Shown piece after piece: positions 2,657 to 37,721 of a stretch of DNA of 64,000 nt; the first letter of the stretch is position 1; every line of letters starts with the position of its first letter. Under the pieces are notes generated by a model. It did not search any database. It worked only from the letters and a program-made list of their open reading frames with translations, and was not told the origin of the DNA. The DNA is taken from NCBI GenBank assembly GCA_027923505.1, contig BROI01000011.1, positions 496,001 to 560,000 on the forward strand, in the 5' to 3' direction. The DNA is from Mayamaea pseudoterrestris (Eukaryota > Bacillariophyta > Bacillariophyceae > Sellaphorales > Sellaphoraceae). Both the position numbers and the translations under genes were made by a program.

Positions 2657-5600
2657 CTACATCCTTTTAACCTTAAAATGGCGCTCGTGACCAGCATTTG
2701 CAAGCATTAGCGCTGATATGGCGGTGTTTGACATTGAGCGGGTATCAACTCCATCAATCTCGCAAACGATATCCCCCACCGCAATATGCTCTCGAATGGC
2801 GGACGTGTGATGCACCTGGTAGACGCTTGGAGTCCCAGTGCTGGTGTCCAGAACGATTCCAAGCTTGCCTGGAGGAGCCACGAACGAAACAAATCGCGCC
2901 TCGCTTGCTGCACTTGGTGCCCCTTCGGGCACAGCTGCAGCGACACGCATTTCATCCATGCTCGTAGTCTCTGCAACAGAAGCTAAAGACTCTCTTGACG
3001 TGGTTGCACCAGAGTATGTCTCTGATTCACTCTTGACAGCAAAGTCTTCGGAGGGTTGTTCCGCGGTAAACTCGGCGGATAGATTTTCTCGGACGGATGC
3101 TAAATTTCTTGATGAAAGCAATCTGGCTTCAGAACCATCTCGAGACATGCGCCGCTTGCCTACACCCTCGTTGACCCACCACGTCCTCATTTCACCCTTG
3201 CCCTTGATCTTAATTTTGCCACGGTTCTGCAAGCGCATATCTGGGCACTGCTCCTTGAGTATTTTAGCAGCTGCATCTGAACAATGGATTCGATTCTCTC
3301 TTGAATTACTTTCCATGCGAGAAGCCGTATTGACAGCGTCGCCGAATAAGCAATATCGCATGTTGCTCGTTCCCACAACGTCTGCAACGACTGGTCCGCA
3401 GTGGAATCCGACACGTATGTTTACGTATCCTTTGCTTGGGTTCTCGTCGTCAATCAGAGTCTCATTTGCAGCAACAATGGCGTCAATGGCAAATTCAGCA
3501 ATACGTCTAGCATGATCATTGGGCTGATCTTTAACAAGATTTGTTACAGCTGATATAAGCGAAATCATGTTAGACAAGTATATAATGGCCGGAATTTCAG
3601 CAAACCATGACACGTACCAACATAAGCGTCACCAATGGTTTCAAGCTTGAAAACCTCATGGGTTTGAGATAGATTGTCAAACTTGGTATACAACCGACCG
3701 AGCATGGAAGCAACTTTCCTGGGGTCCAAAGTAGCAGAAATGTCTGTAAAGCCGACAATATCACTAAAGAAAATGGTAACGACATCACGATGCTCTGCTT
3801 CAACTGGCCGGCCATCTCGTAATGCTTCAGCAATGTGCCGAGGAAAAATATCAAACAACGAGACGGAGCTCTTTGTGTTGCTACCGTCGACATTCACTTT
3901 CTCAGCGTTGACTCGTTTCAAACGGGTGTCCAGTTCTTCGAATGAAGGTCGAAGCATCGGAGAATCATCAAGGCAGTCGATCATAAGTTGTTTAACCTGG
4001 TCACACATACTTTTTGGCACTGGAGGACGTTTCTGGACCGAGTCATCAATGACTCCCATAATAACAGTTTTTGGGTCTTCACCTTCGTAGGGATCGCGGC
4101 GCGAGTACACTTCGTACAGTATGATCCCAAAGGAATACACATCTGTCGCAGCAGTGTTTGTGCTTTCCTTGCGCAACAACTCCGGTGCCATCCAGAATGG
4201 TGTGCCCGTACCTCCCTTCTTCTGAGACAGTCCAAAGTCAGCAACCTTGGCACGAAATCTGTTATCGACAAGAATGTTTGCCGCCTTCAAGTCGCCATGG
4301 ATGACTTGAGGAACTGCAGAGTGAAGAAACCTTACACCTTGAGTAATATCCTTGAGAAAATTTAATAACATGTCGCCTTCCAAAGCCACAGTCTCGTTGT
4401 GAAGCAGATCGTAGAGCGAGCCATGGTCCATATACTCCATAATCATCATGGGCTCCTCCTTGTCTACGACGGCACCCATAATTGTTGTCACACAAGGGTG
4501 ACGAAGCTTTGACAAATATCTCATCTCGTCAAGAAACTCCTGACGCAGTCTCCTTCGCCAAGCGAAATCACTCTCTCGTCTCTGTGCCATTGGAGTGCTC
4601 AAGTGTCCAGCATTATTTCCGCTCTTGTTGAAACGACTTGTCACTGCTGTAGACGCTGTCGCAAGCGATAGTGAAGCGCCGCCCCAAGAACTTCTGCCAA
4701 ATCCTTTCACAGCACCCATTTCTTCGTCATCCGAGTGACTTGCGTCATTGTCCGTCGAGCGCGAGTGGTCAGTATCATGGTGTGACGACGAAGTTGTCCT
4801 GTCACACTTGCGTCGTGGAATCACATGCTTCACTGCTACTTGCGTGCCTCGGTACTCTGCGAGAAGGACCGTTCCAAAGGTTCCTTGACCAATAACGACG
4901 GGTGGTTCACTAAACTTGAGCTCGCCCCTGTCAACTTTCCACACTGAATCGTTACGTCTTCTTTTACTTTCGAGCCATATAAAGGCTCCGACGCCGAGAA
5001 TGAACGCCAGGGCAATGGGAAGTGCTACAGCGAGTGCAAGATTCGCATCCTCTGGAGGAGGAGCAATGTCAAGTGGAAGTTGAGTTGTTCCATCGTTGAA
5101 TATGTACGCCTCGCGCTGCTCCCAAATTCCATCCACAAATAGCGTCGATACAATTGGTTGGAATGTCACCTTGCTTTCACCAACGTCTTGCTTGATCCAG
5201 TTGGTCACGCGATACAGCGTGCTTGTAGGAAGGCGCGTACCACTGACCGGATCAAACGCCACGGATCCACCGATCCCCGTAAAGTTGGTCTTCCGAAAGG
5301 CTTTGTACTGCTGCCTGCCTGTTATTGACAACGTATTCAGTTCCGCTGCTTCGCAAGCGGCTAGCCCAAGCCCAATGGCCGCTTCATAGTGGAAAGGAGA
5401 ATACGTGTTGGTGACTGGGCTTAAAAACTCCTTTTGAAATATGAACGGATTCTCCTTGTAAGTGGCAGGATAGCTGGGATTGTTGTGCTTGGGAAGAAGG
5501 CTTCCAACGTAATTCAAGTCGGTTGGATTTTTAAGCTTCAACATTTGCGACGCGTATTTGTCAAACCCCTTCATGCCCGGCAAACCACCCGAGGCTTCCA

Positions 5601-6864
5601 CCAAACCGATTCCTTGATACGCCTTGGCCAATACCGAGTCTTTTGAGAACTGACGCCCCTGCAGGTAATTGGCGAATGAATCACCAAACAGCCAATTCGT
5701 CACTCCATTTCCGGCCATATCATTCTTGTACGCCTCCAGCAACAATGCATCGTTCGTTTCAGGCGTAAAGACAATACAGAAAATGAAGCGGTAGTTTGTT
5801 TCTTTGACGCTTTGTATGACTTGCTGAATGCTTTCGTCCGACTCGTCGTTCAACGGAAACTGCCGAATCTGCATGCCGGGCGCATGCACCAAGGCAGCAT
5901 CCCGGAGACTACCAACAAAGGCATTTCCAAAGGCGTCATTCACGTTAATGACAGACAAATATTTCAGTTTGAGTACGTCATGCATGAATTTTATGATTGG
6001 AATGGCATTGCCTTGATCCGATGGAATGGTTCGTCCAAAGAGCGGATACTGCGAACGATCATCCAAGTCCACGCTCGTGGCGTAGGCGGACACTTGCGGA
6101 TACCCCAGGAAACCAGAAACAATGGAGGTTGGAATGGTAATGGAGGACAGTGAGTTGCCAATAAAGGCGCACGGCAACGGCGCCGGGAGTGTTCGCGCCG
6201 TTTGCTCAACCAAATGGCGCAGCGCCTCTCCGCCCTGGCCTTGGTCGTCGGTGAATTCGGCTGTGAAGCGAATCTTGCATCGTTGATTCAACCCGGCAAC
6301 TTGCGGAACAATACTTCCATCGCCCGTATTCAAATGATGCAAGGCCAAGGCAATCGAGTATGTGTCCTCGAGGCCGTCCAGTTGCGGCACAAAGTCGCCG
6401 TAGGTGAACGATGTAATGAGGCTGACGTGACAGATTGCAATCGTTTCATTTGTTTCCGGCAGCGTCAATAAATCGACATTGCTCGTATCCTTGCGTTGGA
6501 TTGTAGTAGTATTGTTGGAGGAAGAGGTTGATGAAGCAACGACGCTCAATTTACGAAGGGCGTCGTAGTATCGGAGCGAAGTGAGAAAGCCGTCGTCGCC
6601 ATCTAAGACTTGGTTGCTGCGTAGTAATGTTCCGTTGTTGACATTCCCATTTGCAAGAGAATCATCATTGTTAACAGTAAGATCATCGTCGTCATTATTC
6701 CCATTCGTGCTCGTTACCGCCAACGTTGGAGCCGTCGTTTCTTCGCTAAATGTCACAGCCGTCGGACCAGCCGTTGATGCTCGAAGGTTTGGCGTGGGAG
6801 CTTCCGTAGTCGCAACGGCTGGCGTCGGCGTGACTCCAAAGACCGTATCGTCAAAGAGAGACAT
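2657..6864 (-). CDS. Receptor guanylate cyclase: ligand-binding, kinase, cyclase and PDZ-like domains
   Basis: Two exons (6864-3618 and 3549-2657) join across a 68-nt GT-AG intron to give 1379 residues. The splice restores the cyclase motif GDAYVAVTNL. Order: acidic Ser/Thr/Asn-rich N-terminus (1-140), ANF-receptor/periplasmic-binding-like domain (about 145-560), membrane segment (about 608-631), kinase domain (about 655-985) with a Ser-rich insert near 685-770, class III cyclase domain (about 1028-1215), then a C-terminal PDZ-like domain with a GKLGIVLD loop. Guanylate preference is inferred from Glu in KLETIGDAY and Cys in RYCLFGD. Kinase residues VAVK (Lys679), HGDLKAAN and DFG are present. 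It should make cGMP at a membrane on ligand binding. No signal peptide is visible: the ATG at 6864 is preceded by an in-frame stop, so either an upstream exon is missing or targeting is unusual. Confidence 0.9.
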
Positions 6865-7794
6865 GACTTATGATTGTCAAGTGAACAAGTGCTATAATAG
6901 AAGCCTGCCGCTGTTACTTGATCCGATAAAGACCATCTCGAATTTTGAGACTCCGTCTCGTGCCATGGCCAAGCAAAATGCAAAATGACCGGAGATCCCG
7001 CATGACTTCAACATATTTATGCCTGGTGTCACGGGCATATATCAACGAAACAGCTTGGCGTCACTAGGCCCGACAGTAGCCGTTTCGTTGCATGTTTCGG
7101 CCCCGGGCCCCGGGACCATCACAATCACTCAAGGAGGCGCTGACAATCTGTGCAGATTCTACAAAAAAATATTTGCTAGCGCATAGAAAGCAATTTTAAA
7201 GCTAAAGATGAATGAACAGGATCGACGGCGAAGCTCCGCCTTGCTCCTTGACTCCTCGGCTCCTCGAACCTGACTCCATGACGGCGTCGGCGACGGCAAC
7301 GGCAAGCCCACAAGCATCAAGCTTTTGTGGCTGAGCATGCAATTGCGACCCTGTTTAGTTGCTTAAAGCAAAAGTTGAAACCAAGACACGGACAAAAGGT
7401 AGCAACTGCAAAAGGTAGCTAAAAAGGTGAAACACGGTGCGACACGTGTCACTATGCGACATTTAAAGCAGGCATAATTGTTTTCACAATGACCGCTGAA
7501 CCGCGACTGGGTTACGCCACGAAGGCTTCTCGTCACCATGTTCCTCGTCAATCCCAACAACCCTGCCGCTTGCTTGCCTTTGTTGCTTGCTTTTATACCG
7601 CCGAGTCCTTTCGAAGGACGCGAGTAAAACAACATAGTAATCGCTGTGCCTCCTTGTGAGTGAAGCAGAAAAGGCTTCTCGTTGGCGTACGTTTGGGCGA
7701 GCGAGAAAGTCACGACAGCATTTGAATCAACATTTGAATCATACGGAACCACGGAAACATACCGACAAAGCAAACCAAATAAAAAATATATACC
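6865..7794. other. Divergent promoter region
   Basis: This separates the guanylate cyclase gene (-) from the BRO1 gene (+). A GC-rich palindromic run of CCCCGGG units lies near 7100-7115. A reverse-strand open frame starting inside the BRO1 gene extends in here but looks like a shadow. No gene is supported. Confidence 0.5.
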
Positions 7795-25017: not shown

Positions 25018-25022
25018 CAGGC

Positions 25023-25248
25023 TGTGCTATCTGACACGATTCACATGCACCGGCCCAGCCTCAACGGCGAGCCGGACAGTCAACGGACACGCCCGTCGGG
25101 TATTAGCGAAGATGGGCGATCCTGTTGCGACATCTGCGATCCTCGCCAGTAAAAGAGCGATGGCTCGCCATGGAGGCAATCTTCAATTGCAGTCTTTAAA
25201 ATACCATCATAATTTCCATTTACATATCATCCTACGATAGGTACTTCA
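25023..25248 (+). repeat. LTR 1 (5' outer)
   Basis: A 226-bp long terminal repeat beginning TGTGCTATCT and ending CTTCA. Preceded by the target-site copy CAGGC. Confidence 0.95.
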
Positions 25249-25816
25249 CTTTGAATTCAAAATAGACAACTGTCTATCGAAAACGGAAACGAAACAACAT
25301 GTTGATTAGAGGAGTCGACGTCAAGATCCCTTTGGTGCCTCGCGTCAAGTTTGAGTCGCTACCGAAACAAGATCTCACGTTCACCAAGCAAGATGGATCC
25401 AAGCACAAGCGCAAGATACAGATTGCTAGTGATGAAGACGTCGTGACCGTCCTTCGTGTCATCGGGGAGGTGATTGGTGCAATGGAGCAGCTCGCCTTTG
25501 ATGGACAGGCAGCCCATCGCATGAGGGTCCGCAAGGAATCCTTTCGCCTTTGTCTCCTTGGAGCGCCTCGTGATACTTGGGATCAATCAGTTCTACCAGA
25601 CGATACAATCGCAGCGTGGAACCAGTCGCTCAAAGCTTTCCTCTCCAACCTCATGGTCGTCGACGATGATTTGCGTCGACAGAAAGAGTACCTCAAGAAT
25701 CTCAAGTTGCCTGACGGCTATACGGTTACCCAATCAATTAGTTTGTTGCGCAATATGTTCAAGTTGATGGCTTATATGCCGCAAGAAGACGAGGCGGTTT
25801 ACCCAACGGCGGTCCA
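25249..25816 (+). mobile_element. Incomplete leading internal copy of the gypsy element
   Basis: 568 bp nearly identical to 26043-26610 of the full internal region, covering the leader and the first part of gag. It is a broken derivative lying between LTR 1 and LTR 2. Confidence 0.95.
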
Positions 25817-26042
25817 TGTGCTATCTGACACGATTCACATGCACCGGCCCAGCCTCAACGGCGAGCCGGACAGTCAACGGACACGCCCGTCGGGTATTAG
25901 CGAAGATGGGCGATCCTGTTGCGACATCTGCGATCCTCGCCAGTAAAAGAGCGATGGCTCGCCATGGAGGCAATCTTCAATTGCAGTCTTTAAAATACCA
26001 TCATAATTTCCATTTACATATCATCCTACGATAGGTACTTCA
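25817..26042 (+). repeat. LTR 2 (internal)
   Basis: A 226-bp copy of the LTR, directly followed by the full internal region, for which it is the 5' LTR. Confidence 0.95.
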
Positions 26043-26055
26043 CTTTGAATTCAAA

Positions 26056-26071
26056 ATAGACAACTGTCTAT
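26056..26071 (+). repeat. Perfect inverted repeat just after the LTR
   Basis: ATAGACA-AC-TGTCTAT, 7-bp arms with a 2-nt loop, starts 14 bp after LTR 2; the same hairpin follows LTR 1 at 25262-25277. It lies where a primer-binding site is expected, but no TGG-initial match to a tRNA 3' end is seen there. Confidence 0.6.
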
Positions 26072-26092
26072 CGAAAACGGAAACGAAACAAC

Positions 26093-27190
26093 ATGTTGAT
26101 TAGAGGAGTCGACGTCAAGATCCCTTTGGTGCCTCGCGTCAAGTTTGAGTCGCTACCGAAACAAGATCTCACGTTCACCAAGCAAGATGGATCCAAGCAC
26201 AAGCGCAAGATACAGATTGCTAGTGATGAAGACGTCGTGACCGTCCTTCGTGTCATCGGGGAGGTGATTGGTGCAATGGAGCAGCTCGCCTTTGATGGAC
26301 AGGCAGCCCATCGCATGAGGGTCCGCAAGGAATCCTTTCGCCTTTGTCTCCTTGGAGCGCCTCGTGATACTTGGGATCAATCAGTTCTACCAGACGATAC
26401 AATCGCAGCGTGGAACCAGTCGCTCAAAGCTTTCCTCTCCAACCTCATGGTCGTCGACGATGATTTGCGTCGACAGAAAGAGTACCTCAAGAATCTCAAG
26501 TTGCCTGACGGCTATACGGTTACCCAATCAATTAGTTTGTTGCGCAATATGTTCAAGTTGATGGCTTATATGCCGCAAGAAGACGAGGAGGTTTACCCAA
26601 CGGCGGTCCAGTATACGGACGAGGACATCAAGGATCTCCTGCTCGCAATGGTCCCTACTTGGCTGCAAAGCAAGTTTGAGGAGCAATCTTTAACGAGTCG
26701 CCTTGCAGACCTTTCTCTGATTCAATTTGCTTGTTGGTTGGATAACATGATCAATCTAAAAGCAAGCAACAGGACTCCAGTCGACTCGAACGACAATGGC
26801 GGCAGCCGTCGGAGCGGCAAACGCTCGCGTCGCAACGGTGGCAACGGCGGCGGCCAAAACAACGACCATGGGAATGGATCGAGAAAGAAGCATAAAGCAA
26901 ACAACGATGCCAACGTGTGCAAATACCATGGCGGCCACACTTGGGAGCAGTGTTTCGGCAACCCCAAGGGCCCGCGCTACAAGCCGGGTTTCAAACTCGA
27001 CAAGTCGAAATTGAAAAAGAAAAACAACAATGGAGGCGGCAACAATGGAGGCGGAGCTGCTCAAGGAGCTGATGAAGACCAGCACATGATAGTGGATGTT
27101 ACAACAGAGGAACCAGCGCCAGCGCAAGAGCAAGAGAGCGAGTCGGAGGTTGATTGGGATCAAGCAATTGGAGCGGTCTTTGAAGAATGA
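26093..27190 (+). CDS. Gypsy element gag
   Basis: A 365-codon open frame of the retroelement. The first two thirds are helical and capsid-like; the tail is Gly/Asn/Lys-rich with a Cys/His knuckle (CKYHGGHTWEQC) suited to nucleic-acid binding. It gives the structural protein of the particle. Confidence 0.85.
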   Translation: MLIRGVDVKIPLVPRVKFESLPKQDLTFTKQDGSKHKRKIQIASDEDVVTVLRVIGEVIGAMEQLAFDGQAAHRMRVRKESFRLCLLGAPRDTWDQSVLPDDTIAAWNQSLKAFLSNLMVVDDDLRRQKEYLKNLKLPDGYTVTQSISLLRNMFKLMAYMPQEDEEVYPTAVQYTDEDIKDLLLAMVPTWLQSKFEEQSLTSRLADLSLIQFACWLDNMINLKASNRTPVDSNDNGGSRRSGKRSRRNGGNGGGQNNDHGNGSRKKHKANNDANVCKYHGGHTWEQCFGNPKGPRYKPGFKLDKSKLKKKNNNGGGNNGGGAAQGADEDQHMIVDVTTEEPAPAQEQESESEVDWDQAIGAVFEE

Positions 27191-27681
27191 GATACGGCGG
27201 CGGTCTCAGCGGCAGCCAGTGCGACGGAAGACGCTCTTGTAGCGGACGAAGTTAATCAACAAGCTACTAGCGACAAAGTTACGGATTTCATTCCTGTTGT
27301 ACTTATTGTCGTTGGTAAAGCTAATGGCAGTCGTTGCAAACGCACGCTTACCGCCCTTTGCGACTCAGGAGCCTCGACAAGTTGGATTAGCCAAAGAGCG
27401 GCACATGGATTGCCTCAGTGCAAAGCGCCACGTTTAGTATCACAGACTGCAGTTGGCAAATTGGAGAGCTCTACCAAGATTGATTTTGCCGAGTCGTTCC
27501 TTCCCGAGTTAAGTACTTCAAAAAGGATCGGCGCCTTTCCAGTGCGAGTCTTCCAGCAGGATATAAGGTATGACATGCTGCTGGGGCGAGACGTCTTAAC
27601 GGCGCTCGGATTGACCATTGACTTTGGAGACAAACAAATCAATTGGGGTAATCAATCGACTCCAATGGTGACGATGGAGGA
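27191..27681 (+). mobile_element. Gypsy element protease region
   Basis: The segment between gag and the reverse transcriptase frame encodes an aspartic-protease-like stretch with the motif LCDSGAST and, later, YDMLLGRDVLTALG. This is the usual place for the protease in Ty3/gypsy elements. Confidence 0.75.
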
Positions 27682-30600
27682 TTGAGCAACCGGCCAAAAC
27701 AAATCAGAGACTCTTTGATTGAGCGGTTTGTCCTTTTCTCTGATACTGAACCAGACCTGCATACAAGCGAGGAGATTTTATCAGCTAAGTATAACAAAGT
27801 GTCGACTGATGAGGTTGCAGACCAATCGACTCATTTAAATGAGAAGCAACGTACCGATTTAAAACGCCTCTTACGACGCTTTCCCGCTCTCTTCTCAGGC
27901 AAGCTTGGCAAATACCCACACGAGCTAGTCCACATTGACATTGATCCACAAGCTAAACCAGTCCATAAAAGACATTATCCAGTGCCTCGAGTGCATGAGC
28001 AAACCTTTAAGGAAGAGCTTGATCGACTCGTCGAACTCGGTGTACTTGAGCCTTGCGGCCGCAGCGAATGGGCGGCGCCCACCTTTATTATACCAAAGAA
28101 GGACAAGACTGTACGCTTTGTCTCTGACTTTAGAGCATTGAACAAAGTAATCAAGAGGCGCACGTTCCCGATGCCGCGGATCCATGAACTGCTGGCGAGG
28201 CGCAGCGGATACAAGTTCTTTACCAAGCTTGATATTTCAATGCAGTATTATACCTTCCAGTTGGACAAGGAGAGCAGCAAGCTCTGTACAATTGCAACGC
28301 CGTTTGGTTTGTTTCGATACTTGCGTTTGCCAATGGGCGTCAATCAAGCCCCCGATATTGCTCAAGAGGTGATGGAGAAGGTTTTACAAGGATTGCGCGA
28401 CGTTGAAAAGTACCTTGATGACGTCGGTTGCTTTAGCGACACTTGGCAAGAGCATTTAAAGCTATTGGAGTCTGTTTTAAAGCGACTCGAGGATAGCGGC
28501 TTTACAATCAATCCAAGCAAGTGCGAATGGGGCGTCAAGGAAACCGACTGGCTTGGGTACTGGCTCACGCCGACAGGCCTCAAACCCTGGCCCAAGAAAG
28601 TCCAAGCAATTGTGGATATGAAGCCTCCTACCAATCTCAAGCAGTTGCGCTCATTCCTTGGTCTTGTTACTTACTATCGCACCATGTGGCCTCGTCGGTC
28701 GCACATGCTTGCTCCGTTGACGAATCTCGTTGGCAAAAAGACCTTTCAATGGGGCGCGCCTCAACACAAGGCATTCGAAGAAATGAAAGCTGTTGCAGCA
28801 AGCGATGTACTCCTTCGCTATCCTGATCATAACAAGCCATTCGTCATCAAAACGGATGCGTCTGATTATCAACTCGGCGCCGTCATCCTTCAAGATGGCG
28901 TGCCGGTGGCTTACTTTTCGCGCAAACTCAATTCCGCCCAAGTCAATTACACAACCATTGAAAAAGAATTGCTAAGTATTGTTGAAACGCTCAAAACGTT
29001 TCGTTCGATGCTGCTTGGAGCGCGTTTGCAAATCCATACGGACCATAAAAATCTCACCCACGATTTGACCGCCTTTCAAACACAGCGCGTCCTTCGCTGG
29101 CGCCTGTACTTGGAGGAGTTCGGGCCCGAGTTCTGTTACCTCAAAGGGGAGCTAAACACTGTTGCAGACGCTCTTTCAAGGGTGCCAACAGAAAGGGAAA
29201 CCTCTCTAGTGGGGGAGAGCCCTGTTGATGTTTTGAAACAACGACAGGAAGCGCAAAAGGCAGCAATGCCCATGCGACAATCGCTACCTTTGCGACAGAA
29301 TTCCCATCACGATGACAACTTACACGGTGTCAACGATGGCCATCACGATGGCGGCGTTCTTGCACATTCAAACGAATCAACAACAAACGACCATGGGGAA
29401 AGGCAAATTGAAGAGCTATCAATTGCTAATAATGAAGGTTACTGTCTCCTACGGGACGAACCAGAGCTTGCAGAGTGCCTGCTCCTCCATCCGGAGTTCG
29501 ACGAACAAGGGCGATATCCCCTGTCGTATTCAACCATTGCCGAGTATCAACAAGAAGATGCAACGCTAATGGCCGCAGTCCAAAACCAAGACGCGGCAAC
29601 CATACAATACAAACAACTTGGAGACGTTCAGATTGTTGTATTCCAAGCAGACGAACGCTGGCGAATCTGCATCCCCAGTGCGATCCTCGATCGCTTGATT
29701 CTTTGGTACCACCTCTCAATGGCCCACGCTGGAATGACTCGCCTCACAACGAGCATCAAACAGCACTTTTACCATCCTAAGCTCAAGCAGCGCGTCGAGC
29801 ATCTTGTTGGTGCTTGCGATACTTGCCAACGCAACAAAGGAGGCAGCCGCCAATATGGAGAGCTGCCAGCGAGAGACGTGCGCGTCGCTCCTTGGTATGA
29901 AGTCCACGTTGACCTCATCGGCCCATGGAAAGTATCAGTGAACGGCATTGACTGTTATTTCAGAGCGTTAACGATGATTGACCCAGTTACTAACCTCGTC
30001 GAAATTGTTCGCTATCAGGACAAGTCGGCGTATCATATCGGCCGTCTCTTTGAAGACACCTGGCTCTCTCGTTACCCTCGACCAATGCGACTCATTGCAG
30101 ACCAAGGCAGTGAGTTTAAAGGGGCATTTGGAACTATCCTTGAATACAATGGGATTGATTGGCATGCCGCTTCGGCCAAGACGCCCACCGCTAACAGCAT
30201 TTGCGAGCGCTGTCACCTCGTTATTGGCAACGTGCTTCGTACACTTGTACACGCTCATCCGCCCGAGGATTTGATGGAAGCTGACGATATAATCGATCAA
30301 TGCCTCGCGACAGCAATGCATGCAACACGAGTTGTATCAAGTGGAGCTCTTGATAACCTTTCTCCCGGCGCCGTCGTCTTTCAACGCGACATGTTCTTGG
30401 ATATACCTCTTGTTGCCGACATTCTAGCTATCTCTGTTAAACGAGAAGCGATTGTCAATGAACGTTTGCTCCAAGCGAATCGTTCGAGACTGACTCATGA
30501 CTTTAAAGTTGACGAGCAGATCCTCAAAAAGGTATACGACCCTAACAAGCTCGAAGAACGATGGATCGGTCCTTATTCAATTGAACAAGTCCACGTTAAT

Positions 30601-30684
30601 GGAACGGTTACCATTCGCCTCTCGCCTATGGTGACTGACCGAGTTAATATTCGACGTATCAAGCCGTACCGGCAAGACGTTTAA
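27682..30684 (+). CDS. Gypsy element pol: reverse transcriptase, RNase H, integrase
   Basis: A frame of about 1000 codons. Reverse transcriptase with [20 protein letters not shown] and the catalytic YLDD; RNase H with [14 protein letters not shown] and a conserved Glu in TTIEKELLS; integrase with an HHCC zinc finger ending CDTCQRNK and the D,D,E residues in [15 protein letters not shown] and ICERCH. The tail ends [15 protein letters not shown] and I see no chromodomain. Domain order is that of Ty3/gypsy. Confidence 0.95.
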
Positions 30685-30829
30685 GGTTTGCGCAGCTCCC
30701 TTGTTCGATTCATCAAGATCGAGCTAAATTACGGCACCCTGTACGACAGGAAGGCCGCTGCCACTTTACAAACAAGAAGGACGACATCTTACCCCAGCTA
30801 CCCTCATGGTCACTCTTAGTGTGGGAGAG

Positions 30830-31055
30830 TGTGCTATCTGACACGATTCACATGCACCGGCCCAGCCTCAACGGCGAGCCGGACAGTCAACGGACACGCC
30901 CGTCGGGTATTAGCAAAGATGGGCGATCCTGTTGCGACATCTGCGATCCTCGCCAGTAAAAGAGCGATGGCTCGCCATGGAGGCAATCTTCAATTGCAGT
31001 CTTTAAAATACCATCATAATTTCCATTTACATATCATCCTACGATAGGTACTTCA
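30830..31055 (+). repeat. LTR 3 (3' outer)
   Basis: A 226-bp LTR copy ending CTTCA and followed by the target-site copy CAGGC (31056-31060). Confidence 0.95.
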
Positions 31056-31290
31056 CAGGCTGCACGCAATGAAGTTGGAAAGGTTCATTCGAAAGTACGT
31101 TAGGGTCAGGCTGCAGTACATCCTCTACACGTGGATACACAGTGCCGGTAAGACTTTGGTGCACAATTTTTATCGTTGCAAATGGCTGTTAGGGTCTGGC
31201 TGCAGGTACGAATGCTGAAAACGAAGCACAGTTCACTCTTGGCTGCACACAATGAACTTGACATGTTCGTTCGAAAGTCAGGCTGCAGAG
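31056..31290. repeat. Degenerate local repeats around GGCTGCA
   Basis: Two blocks share the order GGCTGCAC-CAATGAA-TTG, then TTCGTTCGAAAGT or a close variant, then CAGGCTGCAG (about 31058-31112 and 31240-31287); GTTAGGGTC-GGCTGCAG occurs twice as well. The retroelement inserted at the edge of this block: its target CAGGC is part of the repeated word. It lies in the stretch downstream of the orphan gene. Confidence 0.55.
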
Positions 31291-31405
31291 TGTTGTAAAA
31301 CAAAATTGAACCATGCATTAACTGTAAAGTAGTTCACAGCAAATTCATTCATAACTTCATTCCAAACTAGTTCATAACAGATTCATATTTCAACATGTAT
31401 ATTTG

Positions 31406-33232
31406 CTACTTTTTGTTTTCAGATAGCTCTAAAGCTCGCAAAATGCTAGACGTGGCCATGCCGTAAGCTCCATTTCCTTCCAAGCCTTGGACTTGCTTTT
31501 CCATGTACAAAAAGCAATGAAGAACCCAATCCAACTCTAGAACACCATCTGAAAACTTGTCCAGTGCATCAAAAAGTTGGTCTTTGGCAAAAAAGTACTT
31601 ATTGTTTCCCAAAAATCTGAGAGCCAAGGTCTCCATTTCCTGCCAAATACCAAGCAATAAAGGCTTCAATGGAACAATGGCAGATGGCAAAATGCTAGTG
31701 CTGCTACCACTGACATCTAACTTGCCAACAGAATTGGATTCCTCCGATTCTTTCAAGTCAGAGATCTTGCGCTTCTTGGCATTTTCAACATTTACAGAGC
31801 TGCTTGTGCTTGCAGAGCCAGCTTGTGAGCCTTGGCTGCCTTCACAAATGCTCAAAAGAGGATTTACTTGATCCTGCTGCACGACTCCTGCTGTAGCTTG
31901 CTTCTGTCCAGCAAGTGTTGCTGTAGAATCACTTTTGTGTATGGAATGAACCAAAATTCCCATCCCAAGTTTCAGAGAGAAATCCAAAGGGTGCATTTCC
32001 GCCTTGGCTGTGGCATCATTCTCCAACTTGAAAAACCGATACAACAGATGCTTGACAAACCACCTACAACTGTTGATTTCAATGGGGGTCCACCCAAGAG
32101 TCTGGAGCTTACCTGCAAATGGTGCTCCATTGTAAAAACCTTGACCGAAGTGCACAGTATGGTAGCCAGCTGAGTCCGACAGAAATTGGTACATAACAAG
32201 GGCACTCATTGCAGCAAAGGTTGATTTGTTCTTTTTGTTCTGGTTGAGAAAATTTTTGAGGCCTAGCTTCTGCTGCATCATTTTCTGGATGTTAAGATCT
32301 GCAGATACATGCTGAAAAACATTTTTAGCAATCCATGATTATTCTGAAATACATTCAGGACATGAGTGTACTTACCGTGCTTTGATAATGCCCAAAAATT
32401 ATTTGAGCCATGGACTGGAAAGCCACTCGCATAGCCTGCATTTCACGCTTTGAAGATGGATCAAGGAAGGCCTCAAAGTATGAAGAGATGCAACTGTGGG
32501 GATCCTTGCGCCCATTTCTTGACAGCTCACTTTTTGGAAGCACCAAAACAGCTCCAATGATGACCAAAAAAGCCATGAGATTCTTGTAGGATGTAATGTG
32601 ACAAGATTCTTTCTTGCCTGTCTCCATGGTTTCTTCCTTGACAGTGGCATAAGGAATGAGACTGCCAATATTGTCAAAAACAAACTCTCCCTGCAGCTCA
32701 GTGACCCACTTATGCAAAATGCATGCATATTCCTTGAAATTTAAGTTGTTTTGCTGCGACAGGCCATGCAAAACTGAAAACAAAAATGAGTTTCACTGAA
32801 ATTGCAGCACTTTTCACCAAAACACCAAAACTTACCAATTACTTTGCGAAGCAGCATCATCAAATCCTTTCCTCCCTTGGTGACCTGAATCAGCTCCAAA
32901 TCAAGGGCTTGGCAAGCAAAGACAGTGGATTTGGTGAGCTCAGCAAGCATGCCATAGAATTGCTTGCCAACCTCACCATTTGCAAAAGAGAAAAGTGCAT
33001 CAAGTGCTATTGAGCTTGAGAGATCAGCCTCTTGAATGTTAGTGACCTTATTGACAACCTCCTTGATGATGTTTTGGTACTTTAATAGTTTTTGCTGGAA
33101 CTCTTCTTTGGATCGCAGGTTGAGCAAGGCGGGCCTATCTTGATTGGCATGAATAATGTCTTGCACCAGCTTTTCAATGGCTTCAATGTGAGAAGTAGAC
33201 ATGGCTGATGTTACATTGATTGGAAAAGGCAT
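31406..33232 (-). CDS. Unrecognised CpG-depleted gene, three exons
   Basis: Three exons (33232-32836, 32773-32376, 32311-31406) joined by GT-AG introns of 62 and 64 nt, both with TTTTCAG acceptors, give 566 residues with one open frame. I do not recognise the family. The protein is helical, with no signal peptide or clear membrane segment; a Ser-rich loop and a basic patch (NAKKRKISDLKE) lie near residue 430. Two Met codons (33232, 33202) could start it. The DNA is unlike the rest of the window: I counted 19 CpG in 31381-33300, introns included, against several per 60 bases in neighbours. That points to long-term CpG methylation, or origin in a CpG-poor genome. The intact frame and splice sites argue that it is or was recently functional. 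Confidence 0.7.
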
Positions 33233-33537
33233 GGAGTGGCGAATGCTGTGTTCAAAATCTGTTTTTGTGGCTGCAAAATATCCTGTGTGCTGTCACTTCA
33301 ACAGTGAAGATTTGACGGTCAGTGATGCTCGTCAGTTTGTCGGAGGGTATCAGCTCATTTCAGTTACTATGGAGTTTCATGTGCTATTATAACCGCTATT
33401 AAACGGTATTTGCGACAATGGGTACACTAGAAACCATACTCACAGTCGATCGATGCTTCGCGGCAAACACCATCCGTTTTTCCGTTTTTCAAGTTTGATG
33501 TGCGATACAAACTTGCACTTTGGAGCGTATTTCCAAC
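33233..33537. other. Divergent promoter region
   Basis: This lies between the CpG-poor orphan gene (-) and the rhodanese gene (+). CpG frequency recovers from about 33310 onward. No gene is seen. Confidence 0.5.
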
Positions 33538-35463
33538 ATGAAGGAGTCAAAGAAGGAGAAACGAAAGGACGAAAAGAGAAAGGCTAAAAAGGAAAAGCGA
33601 CGATCACTTGATAAAGACAAGGACGACAATGCAAGCATTGACTCGGATAATGATGATGATCGCCGCGCTAAGAAGAAACGCAAAATGGAAAAGAGAAAGC
33701 GAGAACGAAAATCTCAAGAGAATAATGATTCATTCTCGTCCTCCCTGTCGCCGTCAAAAAATGACGCTGCTACTGATGATTCATCCTTGAGCAAGCAGAC
33801 GCCTCCATCTGCCGCAGCGACTGCCGCTCCAGTTGCATTTACGGTGGAGTCTCCTCGTCCCTTTGTCGAGTCATCGGCTCTCCAAGAAGTCACGAGCAAG
33901 CCGCAAGCTGAAACTGACTGCAATACATCACTGCTGCTCTTTTACCAATACGTCGAGCCCGCATGGTCGGCGCAGTACTACAGCAAGACGGTCAAGCCAA
34001 AGGTGCAGGAGATTGCATCGCAGGCTGGCGTCAAGGGACGCATGCGCGTCGCTCGGGAAGGCTTGAACTGCACACTGACTGGCACCAAACGTGCCATTCA
34101 TGACTTTTGCAATCATCTTCGTCAATGGCAGCCCGAGCTGTTTTGCAGCACGGAATTTAAAATGACGCACGACTTGCCGCAGAAGCAAGCTTTTGGCGAT
34201 TTGAAACTCATTCCAGTGACGGAGTTGGTAAACTATGGCTTGCAGGACGGCACGGCTTTGGCGCAATACGGCGGCACGCACTTGGAGCCGCGCGACTATC
34301 ACGCGAAACTCGCGCAACCCGAGACGGTGGTCATTGACGTGCGCAACCATTACGAAACCAACATTGGTCGGTTCACTCCACCGGGTGCAACGTGGCTGGA
34401 TCCGCACATGCGCAAGTCGACCGAGTTTCCAGTCTGGCTCAATGATCCAGAGACGCAGCAGTCGCTCAAGGACAAGACGGTGCTCATGTATTGTACCGGT
34501 GGTATAAGGTGTGAGCGGGCGAGTGCGCTGCTCAAGTATAAAATGGAAACGGATCCAGCGGTCAAGGATTTGAACATCAAGGGTGTGTATCAACTGCAGG
34601 GTGGTATTGACAAGTATTTTAAAGAGTTTCCCGATGGTGGATATTGGAAGGGCAAGGTGAGTGGTCACTCCTCGTTTGGTATGCGCAGCGACATGTTTGA
34701 TGATCGCATTTGCTGACATATCATCATTCTTTTCTCGCAGAACTATGTATTCGACAAGCGATTTGCTCATTATCCACCTGTGCAGCAAGCTGCTGCATTG
34801 TCAAAGGAGGAATCTGCATCCACTTCCGCGTCCTCGCAACCTTTGGATTCCGACTCGAACGTGTCAGCCATTGATTTACAGCCATTGGGCAAGTGCGAAG
34901 CCTGCGACAAGGCCTGGGACATGTACCGCGGCAAGCGCCGGTGTCCGACCTGCGGTGTTCCAAGCCTTATTTGCCGAGACTGTTGGAAGGCGCACGAGGA
35001 GGGCATTAGAGTTATTGATCGATCCGTCCGGTGTGACCTTTGCGTCCAGCAAAACATTCAATCGAAGCATGAATTGCGAGAAAAGGAGCAACATGATTTG
35101 CAAGAATACGAGGCGACGTTGCTGGAGAAAGGTTTGCTGTCGTCAAAGGGCGAGGAGTGGGTTTCTGAAGCGAATCCCGACGGCATTACGCGGCTCTTTT
35201 TGCGAAACATGTGCCGCAAAAGTATGACGGATGAGCTCTTGATCCAAACGCTACCTGGCGTGACGCACATTGTTTGGCGAATGGATCGCAAGACTGGCGA
35301 ATTCTCCGGTCAAGCGTGGGTTGAAATGGAGTCTGCTGAAGCTGCTGCTCTTGCAGTGGCGAAGAATGGTGTCAAGGTACTTGGTCGACCGATGTACATT
35401 GAATACCAGCTAGCTGATGGAAAGGATGCGTGGCCTCCACCGTCTAGTGCAGTCGGGAGGTAG
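33538..35463 (+). CDS. TrhO/TSTD2-type rhodanese fused to zinc-binding clusters and an RRM
   Basis: Two exons (33538-34656 and 34741-35463) join in phase 0 across an 84-nt intron to give 613 residues. Residues 1-60 are Lys/Arg-rich, like a nuclear or nucleolar signal. About 130-373 is the UPF0176 fold: an N-terminal acylphosphatase-like part (GLNCTLTGT) and a rhodanese domain with active Cys319 in MYCTGGIRCERAS; the second conserved Cys325 is present. Bacterial TrhO (YceA) hydroxylates wobble uridine of tRNA; human TSTD2 is the eukaryotic relative. Then come paired Cys motifs (CEACDKAW, CPTCGVPSLICRDC, CDLC) and, at about 522-598, an RRM with RNP-like LFLRNM and FSGQAWVEM. A role in tRNA or rRNA modification is inferred. 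The start was set at the first ATG. Confidence 0.88.
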
Positions 35464-35489
35464 TTAAAGTCAGTCGACCAATCATTGTA

Positions 35490-35870
35490 TTAATATCCTT
35501 TTTCCCCTTGTCTCTCGTCTCGTCCCTTCTCATTCAAATTCATCCTGTCACTTCGCCAGATCAGATTGTACCGACCATGATTCCAAAACGAGGTTCCGCA
35601 AATAATCCTTTTGGAAACGCGCACCATACGTGTCATCGGCAGATCAATGAGAGCGTGGGAATGCTTCGAGTCGCTCCCAAGTGAGTGGCAATGTCCCAAC
35701 CTCATCAGCGTCCCAGCAAATGGAATGCAATCTTCTTTGTGCGCTATCCAGTGATCCCTCTGGCGGTCCTTGCTATAGTAAGCCTTCTTCTTGCACCGGC
35801 TGCAACATTGAAACTTAACGCTTGTTAGTGTATCGCAGTAGGAGCAAGTGAATGGATGAGAAAAGGACAT
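35490..35870 (-). pseudogene. Decayed copy of the neighbouring MYND-finger gene
   Basis: The first 45 codons match the MYND finger of the gene at 35976-37010 (CSYCDTLTSVKFQCCSRCKKKAY), but a zinc ligand is lost (AYYSK where the neighbour has AYCTK) and another Cys is replaced by Asp. After the finger, similarity continues in a different frame: the +1 frame reads GTLPLTWERLEAF, matching RLPLTWEQLEEF of the neighbour. So a frameshift separates the two parts. It also lacks the N-terminal half. It is a tandem, partial duplicate on the same strand, probably nonfunctional. Confidence 0.7.
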
Positions 35871-35975
35871 AATTGAGCTTTCCTGACAGGAGAATGATTT
35901 GCAGTCTACAATTACAGTAGTACTTGCAACAATAAAAAGTAAGCAGCACAGATTACAACATTCTGTTATATTTCT

Positions 35976-37010
35976 TCATTTGATTCGAATGTTTACCAAG
36001 TCTTCCTCCTCGATTCGGGCGCCCGAAGATCCATCCAGGAAACCATGGAACCGTGGATTCTTCCAGACCAACACCTTGCCCGTTGTGAAACCGGGAATCG
36101 TTCGACTCTCCGTGTAGGCGGCGACTCGCTTGCAAATGCCTGCACGATCCTTGCACAAGGCGATCAATCGCAAATGTGGTTCTTGATGAATAAAACGAAC
36201 TTCCAAGCTCTTGCCAGGGGCGACGCCAAATTCCTCCAATTGCTCCCATGTCAATGGCAGGCGCTTGGTATCCTCCTTGCTCAACTCTTCGATCGAAATA
36301 CACTCCTTCTTGTGCGCCTTCCAGTGACTAACCTGGCATTCTTTGGTGCAGTACGCCTGCTTCTTGCACCGACTGCAGCACTGAAGCCTGTGTGTCGTGA
36401 CTTTGCGACAAAAAGTACACGTGTGCGGATCAACCGAAATGTCTCGCTGCGCCGACGGAGGCTCGGCAATAAATTGCTCGTACACGCGCTGCGCCTCGGG
36501 TCCGTCCCACGTATCATCATCAGTAATTGGCCCATTCGATTTAAGCTCCTTCACCAGTCGAGCAATACCAGCTCTTGCTGCAGTTGCAGGGCTAACTTCA
36601 CCCCTGTCTTTCATAGCTTTTTCAAATGCAACTCGTTCAGCTTTCATCGTCAAAAGCTTGTCCCGCTCCTTGCAAAGAGCGTCATTTATCTCCAAGCCCC
36701 TGCCTTGCTTTTCCAGTATATGTAGTTCAAGATGTACATCCAACATTTCCTCCCGCTGCTTCTCGCCAAAGTAAGACTCCCAATGCGCTCGAGCCTCTGG
36801 ACTCTGGACGGACAAGCTCGCAAAACTCTCTTCCAGCAACACTTTGCGCTCCGCTAGTTCTTCGATGCGCGTCGGAGGCCGACGCAATCTTGCTCGCTGC
36901 TCGGCCATGCGGTTCGGCATGTCGAAGCTCATGCAACATTCGTTGCAGTGCTCGCGACGATGAGGCTCGCAGAAACAGCGTCCAATGCTGTCGTTGTATA
37001 CAGATGGCAT
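35976..37010 (-). CDS. MYND zinc-finger protein
   Basis: 344 residues from the ATG at 37010; the open frame begins upstream without an ATG. A Cys/His cluster near the N-terminus (CFCEPHRREHCNECC) may bind zinc. The middle is helical and rich in Glu/Lys/Arg. A canonical MYND finger lies at about 210-250 (CTFCRKVTTHRLQCCSRCKKQAYCTKECQ split by spacing C-X2-C, C-X2-C, C-X3-C, H-X3-C), a protein-protein interaction module. The C-terminal 90 residues form a small domain with LTWEQLEEFGVAPGKSLEVR. No catalytic domain such as SET is seen. A TGACGTCA site lies 232 bp upstream. A decayed copy lies directly downstream. Confidence 0.8.
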   Translation of the reverse strand: MPSVYNDSIGRCFCEPHRREHCNECCMSFDMPNRMAEQRARLRRPPTRIEELAERKVLLEESFASLSVQSPEARAHWESYFGEKQREEMLDVHLELHILEKQGRGLEINDALCKERDKLLTMKAERVAFEKAMKDRGEVSPATAARAGIARLVKELKSNGPITDDDTWDGPEAQRVYEQFIAEPPSAQRDISVDPHTCTFCRKVTTHRLQCCSRCKKQAYCTKECQVSHWKAHKKECISIEELSKEDTKRLPLTWEQLEEFGVAPGKSLEVRFIHQEPHLRLIALCKDRAGICKRVAAYTESRTIPGFTTGKVLVWKNPRFHGFLDGSSGARIEEEDLVNIRIK

Positions 37011-37721
37011 GATAATGTGGAGAAGAAGAGGAAACAAATTAATGGTTGGTCATCATCTATTTTGATTGCAACGTCGAATGCCATCTGCCGATGATTGTGA
37101 TGGTCAACATTATCGCCAAACGGTCATTTTTACAATCGCACCGGTTCTGCATTAAAGCTTCTACACTGTGGCTCATAGTGCAAAGCTAAACTACACCCCG
37201 ATGCTGAGTATTTTATTCAATTGGCCCAGAGACGCTCTTAATGACGTCAAAGTGGTCTTTCGCCCCACACAACATGGCTACAGTGTTTTATTCAAAAGCT
37301 TGGAAATGATCCTTTTTGCCCACCCCCTTTGGCCGACTGACGAGCATCTCCTGCTTCTTTTGCCTCTCTACGTTGCTCTTTTGCTCTATAAACCTAGTAA
37401 ACAAGCATTTATCATTTACTTTGGACAAGCAAGTCAGTCTCTAACTAGTCGCCGCTCACTCGGAGCACCCCAAGCTTCAAATATGATTCCACGATACGTA
37501 CACTACCTTAATCGTATATGAGTACGGTAGAAGTTCATTGACGAGAACAACAGCAATGCTACAATAAGACATATATAGGTAGATCTATAGATGCTGCATG
37601 TTACCCAAATCGAGTCGCATCTATACCCGGCATCTTGCATAGAGCTAGCCATTGACGCTCGAGGCAGCGTCGTTACGAATGATCCGTCATTGTTCGCCGT
37701 ACCCACCAAGCGGCCCAACTG
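37011..37721. other. Intergenic with a CRE-like site
   Basis: TGACGTCA at 37242-37249 sits in a 14-base word (ATGACGTCAAAGTG) identical to one in the array near AlaRS. An open frame from about 37168 to 37521 (+) starts with GTG, has no recognisable domain, and is not called. Nothing else is supported. Confidence 0.5.

Follow-up and report, generated by a model that had tools for sequence, protein, structure and literature searches.

Why has one gene in this stretch of DNA lost most of its CpG dinucleotides, and does its host still use it? We call this gene H, and the whole stretch that was analysed, 64 kb in length (C11:496001-560000), the window; it belongs to a genome of 30.6 Mb in 41 contigs, to which names such as C11 and C2 refer. 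Ten silicon-transporter matches (9 above cut-off, three in one 1,445-codon frame) and 53 chlorophyll-binding matches make the host very probably a diatom; silicon transporters are also present in a few groups besides diatoms. Far from H, the window also holds a long frame on the minus strand (3565-6867) that by eye looks receptor-like, with ligand-binding, kinase and cyclase parts.

The initial annotation had counted 19 CpG in 1920 bp, against about 80 expected, and a recount of 31381-33300 bears this out, with 19 CpG for 86.2 expected from base composition (observed/expected ratio, O/E, 0.22). It had also read 566 open codons with clean splice sites and a depletion that covers exons and both introns and ends near 33310. 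Both readings hold: the 566-codon frame and its two GT-AG introns are verified, and the depleted segment maps as follows.

31273..33315, no strand: CpG-depleted segment, 19 CpG against 97.8 expected at the window background rate
32836..33232, minus strand: H exon 1 (start codon ATG at 33232), preceding intron 1 (phase 1)
32376..32773, minus strand: H exon 2, preceding intron 2 (phase 0)
31406..32311, minus strand: H exon 3 including the stop; the protein has 566 amino acids

The depleted span thus takes in the entire H gene, introns included, together with about 83 bases before the ATG and about 133 after the stop. O/E is 0.17 in exon 1, 0.22 in exon 2 (computed without the CpG at 32376, the full exon counting 5 CpG) and 0.23 in exon 3, and not a single CpG occurs in either intron or in 31273-31405. 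On the side facing the next gene O/E stands at 1.31 (33316-33540), and in the other flank (31059-31272) at 0.76. Among 1,920-base windows slid in steps of 60 and starting outside 29600-33400, the minimum O/E is 0.77. The TpG/CpA ratio in the low-CpG stretch is 1.51, versus 1.20 across the remaining window.

For comparison we assembled a background sample of 225,053 bases in 422 overlapping 1-kb windows, drawn from the 64-kb window, 10 further stretches and 26 loci (loci inside stretches already counted being omitted); this sample is non-random, lies mostly around family hits and gives no genome-wide rate. Its median CpG O/E is 1.12, and O/E falls below 0.55 in 13 windows confined to five places: 4 over H on C11, 3 over H on C2, 2 on C5, 3 on C15 and 1 at the window start. 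This last one (1-1000, O/E 0.50) lies over a repeat that is coding-like by eye. At the other extreme, C2:2336-2356 kb reaches O/E 1.41 and 1.52 across 20 kb, well above the sample median. The CpG depletion at H is a real and strong anomaly.

It is not an effect of the amino acids encoded, because H has 4 CpG at codon junctions, while 300 shuffles of synonymous codons give 35.0 +/- 4.3, with a minimum of 24. Codons of the NCG type make up 6/116 of NCN codons in H on C11 and 4/113 in the C2 copy, versus 51/219 in a paralogue on C8; for arginine, CGN codons number 8/12, 6/11 and 25/30 respectively. Synonymous sites of H have lost more CpG than its arginine codons have, the arginine numbers being small.

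What is this gene? The initial annotation had called its family unrecognised, which holds within the libraries searched: the protein has no match in Pfam or PDB, its best PHROG hit (E 0.44) is no usable relative, and pattern-based scans of viral contigs, prokaryote genomes and plasmids returned no relative of H. The family is without a name in these libraries. A structure predicted from the C11 protein by itself is mainly helix (mean pLDDT 36.5, pTM 0.23). The protein contains a KKRK stretch, which we take to be a nuclear motif and from which we infer that it may be nuclear; together with the genes that neighbour the family, this lets us guess at a nuclear or chromatin role.

The same annotation had described H as an orphan, and this is wrong. 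In fact, copy number shows that H is not single copy: a second, intact copy lies at C2:2325324-2327232 (91% DNA identity, O/E 0.24), and distant paralogues exist besides. The C2 copy belongs to a 5.4-kb dispersed inverted duplication that carries H, a rhodanese gene and part of a MYND gene.

31384..36772, no strand: duplicated block, inverted at C2:2321840-2327236, 93.4% identical over 5,418 aligned columns
33316..33537, no strand: CpG-normal stretch that separates H from the divergent rhodanese gene and presumably contains the promoters of both
33538..35463, plus strand: UPF0176_N + rhodanese gene, CpG-normal, with Pfam matches on 33538-34716 and a 3' end set by eye
35976..37049, minus strand: zf-MYND gene (Pfam), part of which is reached by the duplication

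Since one end of the block falls within the MYND gene, we take the C2 copy to be probably the younger of the two. Divergence between the two copies is patchy: leaving the edges aside, 200-base stretches differ by 0 to 14%, and 400 bases of the rhodanese gene are identical, which looks like local gene conversion. In exon 1 of the C2 rhodanese copy a stop interrupts the frame near codon 49, whereas C11 has an open frame.

Distant relatives are reached in steps. The C11 protein finds C5:73548 (E 0.003) and C5:75625 (E 0.16), and the protein from C5:73 kb in turn finds C11 (E 0.001), C8 (0.002), C2 (0.03) and C12 (0.10). The C8 protein matches C20, C5:403 kb and C5:413 kb strongly and C12 more weakly; C11, C2 and C5:73 kb are not found in its search with E up to 10. 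Aligned as profiles with hhalign, C11/C2 and C8/C20 match with probability 72.9 (E 3.1e-5, 121 columns) without the bridging C5:73 kb sequence, and with probability 95.8 (E 7e-9, 128 columns) once it is added. From these profiles we take H on C11 and C2 to be homologous to the C8, C20 and C5:403 kb genes, the single-sequence links being weak. At C5:412.7-415.6 kb lies a near copy of the C5:403 kb gene whose frame jumps often, a sign either of decay or of an error in the assembly.

These relatives show that low CpG is not a property of the family. Over coding sequence, O/E comes to 0.23 in both C11 and C2 and 0.65 at C5:73 kb, while the undepleted paralogues on C8, C20 and C5:403 kb stand at 1.18, 1.14 and 1.13, and the matched stretches on C12 and at C5:413 kb range over 0.94-1.11 and 1.02-1.15. 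The loss therefore belongs to particular copies and not to the protein type. At C5:72.4-82.1 kb the pattern is intermediate: seven gene segments pool to O/E 0.62 versus 0.97 for seven intergenic ones (Fisher p 0.0017, on CpG versus TpG+CpA counts), the exceptions being one low intergenic stretch (0.45) and one gene segment with just a mild reduction (0.82). In the C8 cluster genes have O/E 1.20 and intergenic DNA 1.28, so coding alone does not lower CpG.

Is H still in use? Comparison of the C11 and C2 copies gives dN 0.067 and dS 0.149 (dN/dS 0.45, p 5.8e-5), and leaving out codons that touch CpG gives dN 0.061 and dS 0.127 (p 0.0006). Exon 3 carries most of the signal (dN/dS 0.30, p 8.7e-5); exons 1 and 2 taken singly are non-significant (0.55 and 0.59, p 0.11 and 0.12). 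All 3 coding indels between the copies are multiples of three, versus 0 of 3 in introns. Both copies thus appear to be under purifying selection, with a weaker ratio of about 0.72 by YN00 (0.076/0.107, no test attached). Since protein-changing substitutions are suppressed, H would still be in use at some time of the life cycle.

How, then, did a gene under selection come to lose its CpG? The initial annotation had offered two options, long methylation under selection or recent arrival from a CpG-poor genome; our analysis favours the first and disfavours the second. To explain these results, we propose that H would be a host gene of a multigene family whose body has long been CpG-methylated in the C11/C2 lineage. 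Its 5-methylcytosines would have deaminated to thymine, turning CpG into TpG or CpA, and the CpG that remain would either be kept by selection, for example in arginine CGN codons, or be new. The mark would not have reached the promoter side or the adjacent genes, and the gene would go on functioning during some part of the life cycle. We consider long-term methylation of the H body with deamination, in a gene still selected, the likely explanation; that methylation is the cause, and that it is restricted to the body, we infer from base composition.

The balance sheet of dinucleotides is one ground for this, alongside the purifying selection between two intact copies, the confinement of the depletion to the gene and its recurrence in gene segments on C5. 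At window background rates, H on C11 misses 78.8 CpG and has 80.2 TpG+CpA in excess; for the C2 copy the figures are 76.8 and 73.5, and for the C8 paralogue -7.6 and -2.9. Over 120 background 2-kb windows the TpG+CpA excess averages 0.5 (sd 18.4), with a maximum of 59.5. The C11 and C2 values are as expected from deamination of methyl-CpG, and a looser match is seen in the C5 cluster (132.8 missing, 107.0 in excess) and in an array on C15 (94.9 and 126.6). In fact, H combines several traits looked for in a gene with a methylated body, namely CpG decay in the body, gain of TpG/CpA, a spared promoter side and a protein under constraint.

Turnover of CpG between the two copies points the same way. 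Among sites that are CpG in either copy, 20/30 differ in H (13 by a change from CpG to TpG/CpA), versus 20/150 in the rhodanese gene (13 of this kind) and 15/82 in the MYND part (9). The CpG-normal intergenic DNA at 33311-33540 also turns over fast (9/20 sites, 4 from CpG to TpG/CpA), and because overall divergence is itself higher in H than in the rhodanese gene (8.4% vs 3.6%), we regard this as supporting evidence and not as decisive. Methylation machinery is possible, as the genome has three DNA_methylase (cytosine-5 methyltransferase) Pfam matches, one of which we presume to be DNMT2-like from a motif; the 8 MBD domains above the Pfam cut-off also count in favour. The C15 array lies at about 295.7 kb (2,250 bases) and consists of tandem arrays without long frames (176-base units in 6.6 copies, 170-base units in 3 copies), with O/E of about 0.2 beside CpG-rich coding-like DNA. 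Its depletion suggests that a CpG-loss process exists elsewhere in the genome. Family membership alone does not draw the mark, given the undepleted H paralogues on C8, C20, C5:403 kb, C5:413 kb and C12.

The alternative that H was transferred from a CpG-poor genome and then duplicated would account for its distance from the nearest paralogue (27% identity in the alignment) and for the sharp borders of composition around it. Host-like codon use speaks against it. With CpG codons included, the distance to the host mean is 0.070 for C11, inside the range of host genes (0.036-0.082), and 0.096 for C2, above it; without them, C11 (0.029) and C2 (0.044) compare with 0.030-0.067 for 8 host genes. H therefore shows no foreign codon use beyond the CpG effect, although the measure is blunt and a donor with similar preferences would pass it. 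Gene structure and kinship weigh more than codon use here. Six modelled genes (C11, C2, C5:73, C8, C20, C5:403) allow a reading with two introns, the first in phase 1 and the second in phase 0, so that H has its intron phases in common with the C5, C8 and C20 genes, and intron 1, the only one inside the profile alignment, falls in the same profile column. The sites on C11, C2 and C5:73 kb were chosen by eye and the phases on C8, C20 and C5:403 were imposed by script; the open frames of 835-845 residues that result support shared phases and are no independent proof of them. A half-depleted relative on C5 also sits in the same genome, and scans of viral, prokaryote and plasmid collections gave no relative of H. 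We therefore regard transfer as unlikely.

Could selection or a local mutation bias have removed CpG without any methylation? H is unusual in its own genome, and methylation is read from sequence, which leaves some room for this. TpG and CpA, however, replace CpG almost one for one, the introns and the 3' flank are as depleted as the exons, and the paralogues of H are CpG-normal. An avoidance of this kind seems to us quite improbable.

Since H sits in a dispersed duplication, one may also think of C-to-T mutation triggered by duplication, as in RIP, and the available part of PMC9998398 raises the possibility that DNMT4 of diatoms groups with RID, the enzyme behind RIP in fungi. Such a process should not spare neighbours in the same block, and yet the rhodanese gene and the MYND part have O/E near or above 0.8 in both copies (their minimum in 1-kb windows on C2, 0.83, falls at the block edge). 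The H frames are intact and constrained on both contigs, with a stop only in the C2 rhodanese copy, and both H copies are depleted equally, so that the depletion most simply predates the duplication; we think RIP very unlikely. That H is a silenced, decaying relic, methylated over promoter and body alike, is just as hard to believe: methylated genes of C. cryptica did have lower transcript levels (PMC5124317, in the portion consulted), but H is under purifying selection, keeps its frame open and its introns GT-AG in both copies and is CpG-normal on its promoter side.

A transposon next door does not explain the loss either.

25023..31055, plus strand: LTR retroelement, with LTRs at 25023-25248 and 30830-31055 that have one difference

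The initial annotation had seen a young retroelement abutting H, and the youth stands; the contact does not, as about 220 bases separate the end of the element, at 31055, from the depleted part. It is flanked by a 5-base target repeat (25018-25022 and 31056-31060), encodes reverse transcriptase, RNase H and integrase zinc-binding domains and is putatively of the Ty3/gypsy type, with putative exact ends. Being CpG-normal (3' LTR O/E 1.11), it is a young bystander to the depletion. Within it, 300 bases from the 5' LTR start are repeated exactly 794 bases further on (25023-26116), an internal tandem duplication.

Gene-body methylation in invertebrates and land plants leaves a pattern of CpG O/E like that of H, with a depleted body, a normal promoter side and raised TpG/CpA. 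There the mark is broad over constitutively expressed genes, according to the part of PMC12344493 available to us, whereas here 13/422 windows in five places are low. The same part of that paper groups diatoms with lineages that lack gene-body methylation and in which methylation is repressive, and describes methylation in P. tricornutum as restricted to transposable elements; this grouping counts against a gene-body reading of H. Methylated diatom genes are nevertheless already known as a class. In the portions at hand, PMC5124317 finds diatom methylation mainly at CpG. It counts 139 methylated genes (1%) in T. pseudonana and a share of 23% in C. cryptica; of the methylated C. cryptica genes, 47% are without a known match versus 20% overall. 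PMC4247016 has methylated coding genes of P. tricornutum targeted by small RNAs. The methylated non-transposon genes of these three species thus share the CpG context of H, as far as these portions go. Those genes were found by methylome, whereas H was found as a sequence scar, in a gene with a selected protein and a spared promoter side.

As a diatom gene without a known domain, H resembles MRP3, the mating-type gene of Pseudo-nitzschia, whose monoallelic expression is reportedly tied to methylation, by the title of a preprint. MRP3 is intronless in the accessible part of PMC6261938, whereas H has two introns, and we dropped the idea of H as an MRP3-type mating gene, gene structure alone setting the two apart. 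Viral genes silenced by 5mC, mentioned in the part of PMC12344493 seen, are like H in that methylation falls on unusual genes; H differs in having no viral relative in our scans and in belonging to a family with introns. Among titles and abstract openings of the literature on diatom or algal CpG depletion and on stramenopile or diatom MBD, we found no account of the H locus or its family.

The family keeps distinctive company. Clusters of H, a small gene S and MBD-domain genes lie at C8:396-411 kb, C5:72-82 kb and C5:403-435 kb; they combine a highly conserved S with a fast-diverging H. The S gene on C8 is 95% identical to those on C20 and at two loci of C5, identity dropping to 65% at C5:81 kb, and S stands tail to tail with H at 4/5 S loci. 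Searches with S of viral contigs (pattern-based), Pfam, PDB, prokaryotes, plasmids and PHROGs gave no usable relative. The genome has ten MBD matches, 8 of them above the Pfam cut-off; H at C8, C5:73 and C5:403-435 kb has 5 of those 8 in its neighbourhood. The three C8 frames score 31.9, 22.5 and 20.8 for a cut-off of 21, the third thus falling short, and two C5 frames without a Pfam match are called MBD-like by similarity alone. One further frame in the C8 cluster has DUF6570 above and Helitron_like_N just below cut-off. With E up to 0.01, the window and 50 kb around the C2 copy contain no S or MBD-like match. We can envision a gene system in which a fast-evolving H, a conserved partner S and clustered MBD genes act together, one H lineage being epigenetically gated by persistent gene-body methylation while selected, perhaps for mating type, self-recognition or chromatin control, and the family's MBD proteins may read the mark. 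We put this forward as a long shot; if true, it would be a gene system of the alga undescribed so far.

Our likely reading, long-term methylation of the H body, has consequences of its own. If it is right, the alga can keep a gene methylated over the long term and yet select its protein, and this history is visible as a scar in the sequence. Functional gene-body methylation in diatoms, which is disputed, would then become testable at two loci, with the undepleted paralogues serving as controls.
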